This document shows positions 48,595-51,618 of a stretch of 64,000 nt of DNA, piece after piece. A program made the position numbers and the translations under genes. A model generated the notes under the pieces. It did no database searches. It saw only the letters and a program-made list of their open reading frames with translations, and was not told the DNA's origin. The stretch covers positions 1-64,000 of the forward strand of contig NZ_JAFKRH010000010.1 in the NCBI RefSeq assembly GCF_019038465.1, in the 5' to 3' direction. The stretch's first letter is position 1. Every line of letters begins with the position of its first letter. This DNA comes from Synechococcus sp. CCY 0621 (lineage in GTDB: Bacteria > Cyanobacteriota > Cyanobacteriia > PCC-6307 > Cyanobiaceae).

Positions 48595-49787
48595 ATCAGC
48601 TCAGCCAGCTGAGTCAGCAGCCGCTCCACCTCCTCAGCCGTGCTGACCAGGTGGGTGCAGGCCCGCAGGCAGCGGGGGGATTCCAGGGTTCGCAACCAGG
48701 TGCCCCGGTCCCCCAGCTGCTTGACGACAGCCTCCGGATCCAGGGGGGCACCCTTGGGATCCGCCATGGTGAAGCTCACCAGCCCCGCCGGCGGGGGCAC
48801 CGCCAACAGGGTGTGGATACCGGGCATCTGTTGCAACCCCTCCCACAGCTGGCTGCTGCGACGCCGGATCGCCGCCAGCCTTGCGTCAGCATCGCCTTCG
48901 GCCTCCAGCAGCTGCAGTGAGCTGTCCAGCCCGGCGAACAGGGGGGTGCAGGAGGTGGCCACCTCGAAGCGGCGGGCGTCGCGGTGGTAGCCGCCGCCTG
49001 CGCCGGGTCCGTCGTGCTCCAGGGTGCGCCAGCCGATGAGGGTGGGGCTGCTCGCCTCCAGCAGCCGCTGGGAGACCGCCACCGCACCGAGCCCTTCGGG
49101 ACCGCAGCACCACTTGTGGCCGGTGCAGGCATAGATATCGGCGGCGGCGGCCGCCTCGGCCACCGGCAGACTCCCCAGGGACTGGGCCGCATCCACCAGT
49201 AGCCAGGGGTGGCGGGGATAGCCGGCCAGCCGGGCCGCCACCGCCGCGATCGGCATCGTCTGGCCGGTGTTCCAGAGCAGGTGGGAGAGCACGACCAGCC
49301 GGGTGCGGGGGGTGAGGGCCGCCTCCAGCCGCTGGCCCACCGCCGCGGCTGTTGCGTCCGCGTCACCGGTGAGATCCGCCACCGCCAGGGAGGTGACCCG
49401 CAGCCGATGGCGCCGGGCCAGCTCCTCAAGGGCGGCCACCACGCCGTAGTGCTCGGCATCGCTCACCAAAAGTTCGTCGCCCGCCTGCCAGGGCAGGCCC
49501 CAGAGGGGCAGCACGCAACCCGAGGTGACGTTCTCGGTGAAGGCCACCCGCTCCGGCACCACGCCGAACCAGGCCGCCAGCCGCTGCCGCAGCCCTGAGA
49601 CCGTGCGGTTCACGTAGGGCCAGACGTTGTCGCTGAACGGTCCCAGCTCCTGGATGGTGGCGAAGGACGCACTGATCGCCGCCAGCGATGGGGTGGGCAA
49701 GGGGCCCTGGCCGCCGTAGTTGAAGTAGAGCTTGTTGCCCAGGGCGGGCATCAGATCCCGCAGGGGGATGGGGGGCTCAATGGGCAA
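48576..49787 (-). CDS. Class V PLP enzyme, C-DES / cysteine desulfurase-like
   Basis: A 403-residue fold-type I enzyme. It has [52 protein letters not shown] and the PLP lysine in [17 protein letters not shown]. This resembles cyanobacterial L-cysteine/cystine lyase C-DES and NifS/SufS relatives. I see no conserved catalytic Cys loop typical of SufS (RxGHHCA), so C-S lyase or isopenicillin N epimerase-like chemistry is more likely than classical desulfurase. The reaction is not certain. Confidence 0.82.
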
Positions 49788-49980
49788 GGCAGACGACCAT
49801 GAATGGAAGAAAGCATGGCAGTGGATTCCTACGGCTGGGCAAGGACTCCGGCGGGATGGACACGGACGTTTTGCTCGACGCTACCCACTGGAATCCAGCC
49901 CCAGGCCTTCCTCGGGGGCAGGAACCACGCCCCCCACCCTGCCTTGCGGCTCAGTCCATGCGAGCAGCCCGGCTGATGGA

Positions 49981-51150
49981 TCAGTCATTCACGGCAAGGG
50001 CGCATCGCTTCTGGCCGTTGATGCGTTTCCTCAGTCTGCGGCTGTAGCCGAAGGCCACACCGATGCCGACAACAGGGAGTGGGCCAGGAACCCTCGCGAC
50101 GACGTCGCTGTATAAGGCATTGCCCACGTTCTGATACAGGGCCGTGGTTGGATGGAGTTCATCCCAGAATATGCGCCGACCGGCTACCTGCGGATCGCTC
50201 AGGCAGGCGAGATCGCGGATGCAGGGCACCGAGGAGTCATCCAGGCCATAGGCATTCGGGTCGTCATAGATCCTGTTGGTTAACGCGTAGAAGTCGAACA
50301 ATTGCAGGTCGGATCCAGCCAGAGTCGGCCGGATGGCATCCAGTGCACCCTTTAGAGATGCATTGAAGATGTTGGAAAAGAGCGTGAGCGTCTGCGATTG
50401 TGCTCCTGCCCCTGGGATACGACCCAGATCCGGGGAATTGAAGACAAGAATATTGCGTGCACCACGCTGATAGAAATCCGCAACAGTTGAGACGTTGTTG
50501 GTTACCGCGTTGGCGATGATCTGTTGAAACACCTGTACGCCCACCTCGGGTGGTGGGGCCTGGATCGTCGGGGGTCCCGGCTGCAGGCTTGCGTCGAAAG
50601 TTCCCACCAGATCTCCCGTGGTGTTGTTGTAGAGCACGTCATTGGGGAACAGCTCGATCACGAACAGCGACGTGGCTGGATTAAAAGCCGGGTCCGATGC
50701 GATGAAGGCCTCCCGCTGCCAGGCATTGCCGAGATTCTTGAAGTAGCCCGGAATCACCGAACCCAGGTCTGGTGACACGCCGTTGTTGTTGCCCACGCCG
50801 CTGCTGGCTCCACCAATCGCGTAGTTGGTGCCTCCGGCCAGGGAGGGCCGGAACGGAGCCAAAGGGTTGCTGACACTGTAGAAAGGGTCGCTGGGGTTGA
50901 AGCGATTCCACAGATATTCCACGGATGTCGGCCCATTGCTGAATCGCCCATCCGCATAGGGTGGCGGTGGAAAGCTGATGGTGCCACCGGATTGCATCTG
51001 GGTTCTCAGGCCCGCGTTGCCACCGTCAAGGACGCTATCTCCGATCACAAAAAGCTTGTCGAGGCTGGCAATTCGTGCCAGTGCAGGCAGCGGAGCGAGC
51101 AGTGCTGTGCAGGCAGTAGCTATGCCAAGCCATTGTGAAATGGTACGCAT
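49981..51150 (-). CDS. Secreted GDSL/SGNH esterase with PEP-CTERM-like sorting signal
   Basis: A 389-residue lipase or esterase with an N-terminal signal peptide (to about ALA, residue 25). The GDSL block is FVIGDSVLDGGNAG with nucleophile Ser39. TNYAIGGASS and a catalytic Asp-His pair in WDELHPTTAL (about residue 334) complete the SGNH set. The C-terminus VPGPLPVVGIGVAFGYSRRL followed by RKRI matches the cyanobacterial PEP-CTERM pattern: a PGPLP motif, a hydrophobic helix and a basic end, here with 12 extra residues. That predicts exosortase processing and surface or outer-membrane delivery. The gene looks less GC-rich than its neighbours. Confidence 0.88.
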   Translation of the reverse strand: MRTISQWLGIATACTALLAPLPALARIASLDKLFVIGDSVLDGGNAGLRTQMQSGGTISFPPPPYADGRFSNGPTSVEYLWNRFNPSDPFYSVSNPLAPFRPSLAGGTNYAIGGASSGVGNNNGVSPDLGSVIPGYFKNLGNAWQREAFIASDPAFNPATSLFVIELFPNDVLYNNTTGDLVGTFDASLQPGPPTIQAPPPEVGVQVFQQIIANAVTNNVSTVADFYQRGARNILVFNSPDLGRIPGAGAQSQTLTLFSNIFNASLKGALDAIRPTLAGSDLQLFDFYALTNRIYDDPNAYGLDDSSVPCIRDLACLSDPQVAGRRIFWDELHPTTALYQNVGNALYSDVVARVPGPLPVVGIGVAFGYSRRLRKRINGQKRCALAVND

Positions 51151-51429
51151 GCCTGCATCTTGAAATGTTCTCTAGGACTCTACGCACAGAGCAAGAAATC
51201 CCTGAACTGATGCATCACATCAGCTGATCAATCTTTGTTGCGATGATGTCGGTAATTCGGCTGCAACGGCTGTTCGCTGTTTCTCGCACGATCCATGTCG
51301 CGTGGAACGAGTGCCGGCCATACACCGGAGGGTTGCTGTTCGGTGAGGCGGGAGGTGCTGATCTGCCAGCACCCTCCACCTTTCCTCCTCATGGAGCTGT
51401 GGCCACCGGAGGGCGATGCCGCTTCCGTT
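51151..51429. other. Intergenic stretch with no gene recognised
   Basis: These 279 bases lie between the GDSL esterase start and a small membrane-protein gene. They are less GC-rich at the esterase side, and I can name no terminator, RNA or operator. A plus-strand frame across 51243-51488 has no family likeness and I do not accept it. The promoter of the esterase should lie near 51151-51240. Confidence 0.5.
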
Positions 51430-51618
51430 TCAGTTGCTGGAGATCACTTGGCCCACCACCACGGCCGCCACGGCCGAGAACAGGGTGATGCCTAGCGCCG
51501 TGAGGGGGCTCTGGCCCTGGGCCACCGCCAGGGTGGTGATCACGCCGGCCCCGAGGCTGGCCACGGCGAGCTGAGACGTGAGTTCACTGCCGGTGCGGGG
51601 GCTGGGGCTCGGGGTCAC
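51430..51618 (-). CDS. Small one- or two-helix membrane protein
   Basis: A 62-residue protein starting with GTG. A polar N-terminus (TPSPSPRTGSELTS) is followed by two hydrophobic segments (about 17-33 and 40-59) with small residues (Ala, Gly), ending VGQVISSN. No family is recognised. The gene stands alone between the GDSL esterase and ycf46. The regular hairpin-like topology supports a real gene; the weak start leaves doubt. Confidence 0.45.
   Translation of the reverse strand: MTPSPSPRTGSELTSQLAVASLGAGVITTLAVAQGQSPLTALGITLFSAVAAVVVGQVISSN

Follow-up and report, generated by a model that had tools for sequence, protein, structure and literature searches.

A GDSL hydrolase with a variant PEP-CTERM-like tail and an interrupted exosortase frame in a freshwater picocyanobacterium

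The GDSL hydrolase gene and its slot

The window analysed here, a 64,000-nucleotide stretch of Synechococcus sp. CCY 0621 that corresponds to positions 1-64000 of contig C10, carries a GDSL/SGNH hydrolase gene that stands alone on the minus strand (Table 1). The open reading frame begins with ATG, and its product matches the Pfam family Lipase_GDSL over residues 33-346 (E 6.4e-16; score 59.6 bits, cut-off 23.6), which bears out the sequence-only reading of the gene as a GDSL esterase. That reading had also described an N-terminal signal peptide, a C-terminal PGPLP followed by a hydrophobic helix and RRLRKRI, and a lower GC content at the gene, and all three features are found. Specifically, the N-terminus, MRTISQWLGIATACTALLAPLPALA, reads by eye as a Sec-type signal peptide, in which A23 and A25 are almost invariant among 13 aligned proteins, and the protein closes with ...ARVPGPLPVVGIGVAFGYSRRLRKRINGQKRCALAVND, where VPGPLP, the hydrophobic stretch and RRLRKRI follow one another. 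The gene has a GC content of 58.4% and a GC3 of 0.67, compared with 69.8% GC for the window and a GC3 of 0.87-0.91 in five checked genes nearby; a GC content this low is reached by 0.6% of the 1170-base sliding windows across the 64 kb. A single-sequence AlphaFold2 model of the protein had a mean pLDDT of 32 and was left unused.

Table 1. Positions of the hydrolase gene, its motifs, its slot and the exosortase locus. Coordinates are those of the window unless a contig (C10) or a locus (L001) is named.
Feature	Position	Strand	Basis
GDSL/SGNH hydrolase gene, 389 aa, single gene	49981..51150	minus	ORF, translation, Pfam PF00657, PDB profile matches
Predicted Sec signal peptide, residues 1-25, ends PALA	51076..51150	minus	by eye
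Block I GDS, presumed nucleophile Ser39	51034..51042	minus	G37, D38 and S39 invariant in 13/13 aligned proteins
Block III Asn170, in FPND	50641..50643	minus	N170 and D171 invariant in 13/13
Block V DxxHP, Asp330 and His333	50152..50163	minus	invariant in 13/13 aligned proteins
Predicted sorting tail, residues 354-377, VPGPLPVVGIGVAFGYSRRLRKRI, 12 residues after	50020..50091	minus	sequence, genome search, tail alignment and profile
Slot between aminotransferase gene and small ORF	49790-51425		neighbour comparison
Small ORF, 62 aa, slot border, flank outside the system	51430..51618	minus	alignment in G015, G016, G019
Exosortase frame	C10 168052-168987 (L001 1435-2370)	minus	PF09721 profile match
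P0002, 224-aa protein	L001 761-1435	minus	overlaps end of exosortase frame

The residues that mark an SGNH hydrolase are in place, with S39, N170, D330 and H333 invariant in all 13 aligned proteins of the genus. Ser39 is presumably the nucleophile, and Asp330 and His333 are presumably catalytic, as judged from their roles in the SGNH family. Block III of SGNH hydrolases usually has the form GxND, whereas the window protein reads FPND, as do 12 of the 13 aligned proteins, the remaining one (L060) reading GAND. A profile search against solved structures returned ChoE (6uqv), PlaA (8a24) and the GDSL esterase 5xtu, all at E near 1e-38; the match to ChoE forms one stretch over profile positions 33-339, and those to 5xtu and PlaA form two stretches each. 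Because of these matches, the window protein is likely an ester hydrolase of the broad ChoE/PlaA/GDSL esterase group.

Matches to the hydrolase at E below 1e-26 occur in 18 of the 42 genomes of the genus. Seventeen loci were read besides the window's own, of which 14 reach the C-terminus, two run off the locus (L064, L065) and one ends early (L066), and each of the 14 homologues that reach the C-terminus carries a tail of the VPGPLP kind. One homologue (L061, on contig C83 of G020, a draft that is 78% complete) has a TAG inside the match. Across the class, matches at E up to 1e-15 were found in 24 of 388 genomes. Among 27 GDSL loci from other cyanobacterial families, seven bear a PEP-type tail at the same place (for example VPEPSTI or VPEPATVLGL) and 20 have no such tail, several of them carrying long repeat-rich extensions; the best-scoring full-length distant loci, L124 and L126, have a hydrophobic-basic end and no PEP motif. 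Since related enzymes bear PEP-CTERM tails elsewhere and VPGPLP tails here, there is a hint that both kinds of tail serve the same job.

The gene sits in a slot that is occupied in some genomes and empty in others. Seven of the 42 genus genomes were viewed at this slot, the window included, and the gene is present in four and absent from three. G001, G004 and G010 have it flanked by the same pair of genes, its product being about 74% identical; in G015, G016 and G019 it is missing, the end of the small ORF aligns beside the end of the aminotransferase gene, and the neighbours stand 145-265 bases apart. Measured against G001, G004 and G010, dS is 0.79-0.87 for the window's GDSL gene and 0.21-0.40 for two flanking genes, and two comparisons of the GDSL gene among those three genomes gave 0.31-0.36. 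Among these alleles, that of the window stands apart, diverging far more than the genes that flank it. Import of the allele by exchange at the flanks would be the simplest reading of these distances, with faster evolution of the window's allele as its rival. As for a mobile-element origin of the gene, positions 49700-51500 held no clear terminal repeats, just short matches, and the idea was rejected.

The tail family and its exosortase

Searching all six frames of the genome (3.23 Mb in 101 contigs) with the 26-residue tail returned 18 matches at E up to 10. Fifteen of them lie close to the C-terminus of open frames, the motif beginning 25-53 residues before the end: the window gene and 14 others, which answers the count of same-tail proteins that the sequence-only reading had proposed. 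Two further matches, L017 (1294-1599, plus strand) and L019 (1345-1620, minus strand), are short frames with degraded tails and possible remnants of lost tail genes; L019 adjoins two related tail genes, L008 and L009, on contig C25. The match in L018 was judged spurious after being viewed in context.

The 15 tails align without gaps, and 8 of the 27 columns are invariant (P5, P7, L8, P9, G12, R21, R24 and R26). The signature motif is PGPLP in 14 tails and PAPLP in one, and the Glu of the PEP motif is absent from them. The window protein has the general layout of PEP-CTERM proteins, with a signal peptide (by eye), a short motif, a hydrophobic stretch and a basic end. Among the other tail proteins, L014 is cut by the end of its locus so that its start is unseen, and it is uncertain where L007, L012 and L013 begin. 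As in PEP-CTERM systems, the tail is spread over many mostly unrelated proteins of one genome: once the tails of the 15 are removed, similarity at E up to 0.001 is left in 2 of the 105 protein pairs (L005/L011 and L008/L009). GC3 of the tail genes ranges from 0.40 to 0.89 and lies below 0.78 in 12 of the 15.

Family scans covered 10 of the 14 other tail proteins (all but L009, L013, L015 and L016). The one Pfam match above cut-off is the NHL repeat of L006, and NCBIfam named a ScyD/ScyE-family protein (280.7 bits, cut-off 80). Below cut-off, NCBIfam gave 'cistern family PEP-CTERM protein' (47.2 bits against 60) and a choice-of-anchor repeat in scanned tail proteins. The cyanobacterial PEP-CTERM model TIGR04155 falls near the ends of 3 of the 10, scoring 11-12 bits where 21.6 is the cut-off, and has no match in the window GDSL protein.

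The sequence-only reading had found no exosortase in the window and had suggested looking for one elsewhere in the genome. Both points hold: the sole PF09721 match of the genome (E 1.2e-27) lies at C10:168118-168813, on the window's contig and about 117 kb off, and the search, run at E up to 10, returned no second exosortase. The refuting outcome named in that reading, a genome lacking both an exosortase and any further protein with the tail, is contradicted on both counts. The match scores 97.2 bits against a cut-off of 25.7, across the frame including an inner stop, and CNG (Cys), NTLRI (Arg) and FFH (His) are all contained in the frame. Those named relatives of the exosortase that share 81-87% identity with it belong mostly to Cyanobium and Synechococcus, in agreement with the earlier placing of this DNA in a picocyanobacterium.

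Among curated models, cyanoexosortase A (TIGR03763) is the best for the own exosortase, at 99.7 bits for its 265-aa piece, and also for the exosortases of five intact named relatives, at 123.9-132.1 bits; all six stay below the cut-off of 150. The broad signature TIGR04178 (cut-off 23) is reached by the five relatives (43.8-48.9 bits) and by the own piece (31.9 bits). The neighbours of the exosortase encode an SLBB/Poly_export protein, a Wzc-like protein (Pfam AAA_31) and glycosyltransferases, and further genes of the locus encode carbamoyltransferase, asparagine-synthase-like and phosphatase-like (below cut-off) proteins; the gene for a Polysacc_synt_2 protein overlaps the start of the exosortase. 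P0002, at the other end of the frame, has no NCBIfam match (E up to 10) and no Pfam match (E up to 0.01). A relative of P0002 stands behind the exosortase in 27 of the 29 genus loci and in 13 of the 14 named ones, with identities as low as 30-40% in some cases; against G015, the dN of P0002 is 0.038 and its dS 0.10, so that its protein changes faster than that of the exosortase.

Across genomes, the tail was sought with a profile built from the genome's own tails, as TIGR04155 found nothing over cut-off; depending on the search, the best 150 (genus) or the best 21 or 6 (order) candidates per genome at most were scored, so that the resulting counts are lower bounds, and a tail-negative genome could be a miss. 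The tail occurs in all 42 genomes of the genus, with 2 to 48 matches as lower bounds, and the exosortase in 39; the three without an exosortase match, G009, G035 and G041, are drafts that are 95, 91 and 84% complete. In a sample of 399 genomes from the order, tail and exosortase occur together in 50, the tail alone in 7, the exosortase alone in 15 and neither in 327; outside the genus the corresponding numbers are 14, 4, 15 and 327 (Fisher p 3.7e-14, not corrected for kinship). An exosortase is present in 50 of the 57 tail genomes of the order, a tail-profile match is absent from 327 of the 334 genomes without an exosortase match, and 15 of the 65 exosortase-bearing genomes have no match to this tail. 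The seven tail-only genomes are the three drafts of the genus, G132 and G182 with one weak match each, and G308 and G322, which are 85-88% complete. G009 counts most against the tail-exosortase rule, with 48 tail matches in an assembly of 340 contigs where PF09721 finds nothing at E up to 0.001. A chance or degenerate tail was rejected in view of the 14 other proteins that carry it and of the way it tracks the exosortase across genomes.

TIGR04155 as the sole test was dropped. It scored at best 15.3 bits in the genome of the window and 20.6 bits across 30 genomes, among them the 15 with an exosortase and without this tail, and in none of the 30 did it pass the cut-off, many-tail genomes included; the control genomes likewise gave nothing over cut-off, which left the search without a positive control. 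Because TIGR04155 reached its cut-off in 0 of 30 genomes and the exosortases of the relatives fall short of that for cyanoexosortase A, the picocyanobacterial pair of tail and exosortase lies outside the specific curated models.

The in-frame TAG of the exosortase

A single in-frame TAG interrupts the genome's own exosortase frame, six codons ahead of the His of FFHD, which we take to be the catalytic residue of the Cys-Arg-His set; the Cys of CNG and the Arg of NTLRI precede the TAG, and the His lies behind it. Among the 46 PF09721 matches of the genus, the inner stop is confined to the own match and occurs in none of the 45 others, which come from 38 of 41 genus-mates and are in some cases partial. 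Of the 44 loci supplied, 35 (with the own one) showed the exosortase motif, and the 34 others all have Trp (14) or Leu (20) in place of the TAG; some of the named loci (L079-L092) seem to come from the same genomes as unnamed ones (L020-L048), with which they share identical motif stretches. The own frame spans 265 aa and that of G015, the nearest genome found, 312 aa. Over 3.7 kb, G015 is 95.6% identical without gaps, and its exosortase is open.

On either side of the TAG, the comparison with G015 yields a dN/dS of about 0.08, a weak test in that the rear part comprises only about 46 codons, 5 of them differing. Because the two sides are alike, a recent change or an error fits, and the stop looks recent: the isolate has either lost sorting recently or carries a sequencing error at the TAG. 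A more far-reaching reading, slightly short of an even chance, is a joint statement: that freshwater picocyanobacteria possess an exosortase subclass of their own, in which the VPGPLP tail goes with an exosortase that is CrtA-like yet under the curated cut-off and with a coupled accessory protein outside the families scanned, and that this strain is a recent natural exosortase-null in which 15 tagged proteins, the GDSL esterase among them, would be stranded in the inner membrane.

The most serious competitor, itself somewhat below an even chance, is that the TAG is a base-calling or assembly error and that the strain sorts normally. The interruption concerns one codon, the frame runs on to the end seen in the relatives and overlaps the next gene, dN and dS are each alike on either side, and the gene is open in so close a genome as G015. 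Set against this, a 19-kb alignment to G015 (96.2% identity, 6 gap openings) covers 15 genes, 14 of which end at the same residue as their counterparts, the exosortase alone being shorter, which argues that the assembly there is not generally poor; furthermore, a recent natural mutation would look identical to an error.

The intact state of the tail genes bears on a second alternative, namely that the tail is a permanent, uncut C-terminal anchor that keeps the esterase in the inner membrane, facing the periplasm, in every strain. A hydrophobic stretch followed by RRLRKR agrees with the positive-inside rule, and all 15 tail genes are open despite the interrupted exosortase. However, open tail genes say little because the stop looks recent, and a mere anchor would have no need for a conserved VPGPLP with 8 invariant positions in 15 mostly unrelated proteins, nor would it need to track the exosortase across genomes; we consider such an anchor unlikely. 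Readthrough of the TAG by a suppressor tRNA or its context, yielding some full-length exosortase, would suit a downstream frame about as conserved as the upstream one but is highly improbable, as none of the 8 loci with a CUA-like pattern yielded a CUA-anticodon tRNA in ARAGORN (the pattern being narrow and covering part of the tRNA genes of a 101-contig genome), and readthrough is needed neither by the 14 other tail genes nor by 14 genes near the exosortase.

A lineage-specific form of exosortase sorting

The preferred reading is that the tail is a picocyanobacterial variant of the PEP-CTERM signal, consisting of VPGPLP, a short hydrophobic stretch and RRLRxR, on a secreted SGNH/GDSL hydrolase that is predicted to be sorted to the outside by an exosortase; we put its probability at about 0.8. 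The sequence data that point to it are the tail family, the lone exosortase in an exopolysaccharide locus, their co-occurrence, the esterase residues and the PEP-type tails of some distant relatives. Against it stand the missing Glu of the PEP motif, a tail below TIGR04155, an exosortase below the cyanoexosortase A cut-off, the 7 of 57 tail genomes without PF09721, the 15 of 65 exosortase genomes without this tail, the 20 of 27 distant GDSL loci without a PEP-type tail, and the interruption of the own exosortase. The earlier proposal that an exosortase recognises the tail thus survives in part: the tail family, an exosortase on the same contig and the co-occurrence speak for it, and the TAG in the exosortase frame leaves sorting in this particular isolate in doubt.

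Several features connect this system to described ones. According to Haft et al. 2006 (PMC1569441), the PEP-CTERM/EpsH system shares with it a signal peptide, a C-terminal motif with a hydrophobic stretch and a basic end, the spread over many unrelated proteins per genome, mostly in single-gene units and with strain-unique members, and an exosortase near exopolysaccharide genes, the own locus resembling the described neighbourhood. The same study reports PEP-CTERM genes confined to one of two close relatives in the pair Nostoc/Anabaena. In contrast to that system, the own motif is PGPLP without a Glu, the hydrophobic stretch is short, and the cyanobacterial curated model stays below cut-off. 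The exosortase resembles cyanoexosortase A in having it as the top curated model, as do the five intact relatives, and differs in that all score below 150 bits, the own copy is interrupted by the TAG and the accessory gene has no NCBIfam or Pfam match. Cyanoexosortase B of Nostoc punctiforme (PMC12188702) is the one tested case of cyanobacterial exosortase function in the literature consulted; its gene likewise lies in a polysaccharide locus with an associated protein after it, whereas it belongs to another subclass (29.8 bits for the own piece), serves PEP-type tails and resides in a filamentous host. Literature searches found no paper joining PEP-CTERM with Cyanobium, nothing but a Janthinobacterium genome paper on PEP-CTERM with GDSL, and nothing but work on Planctomycetota on exosortase with picocyanobacteria.

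A proposed model of export, holding, cutting and transfer for VPGPLP proteins is drawn by analogy from Nostoc cyanoexosortase B and the archaeosortase ArtA; the cleavage, the acceptor, the final place and the substrate of the GDSL enzyme are inferred. The Sec system would export the protein, and its signal peptide would be removed. The tail would then retain the protein in the inner membrane with the basic end inside, until a cysteine transpeptidase resembling cyanoexosortase A cleaves it in or close to PGPLP and hands the enzyme to an acceptor. The enzyme would thereby arrive outside together with exopolysaccharide, where it may cut ester bonds of lipids or acylated polymers. What the sequence supports is an SGNH-type hydrolase; action on lipids, polymers or neighbours, as the sequence-only reading suggested, is conjectural. 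In this isolate, the final sorting step may be lost.

Should the TAG be real, then this isolate has recently become a natural sorting mutant whose GDSL enzyme is probably left in the inner membrane on the periplasmic side. The window strain and G015 would then form a natural off/on pair for the role of the system; G015 bears a second PF09721 match, a complication for such a pair. The system belongs to a known kind, here in a form peculiar to the lineage that scores below the specific curated models; the interrupted exosortase is unexpected. This form is present in nearly every sampled genome of a small-genome freshwater picocyanobacterial genus, and because it lies below those models, most of its tagged proteins went without a family name in the scans.
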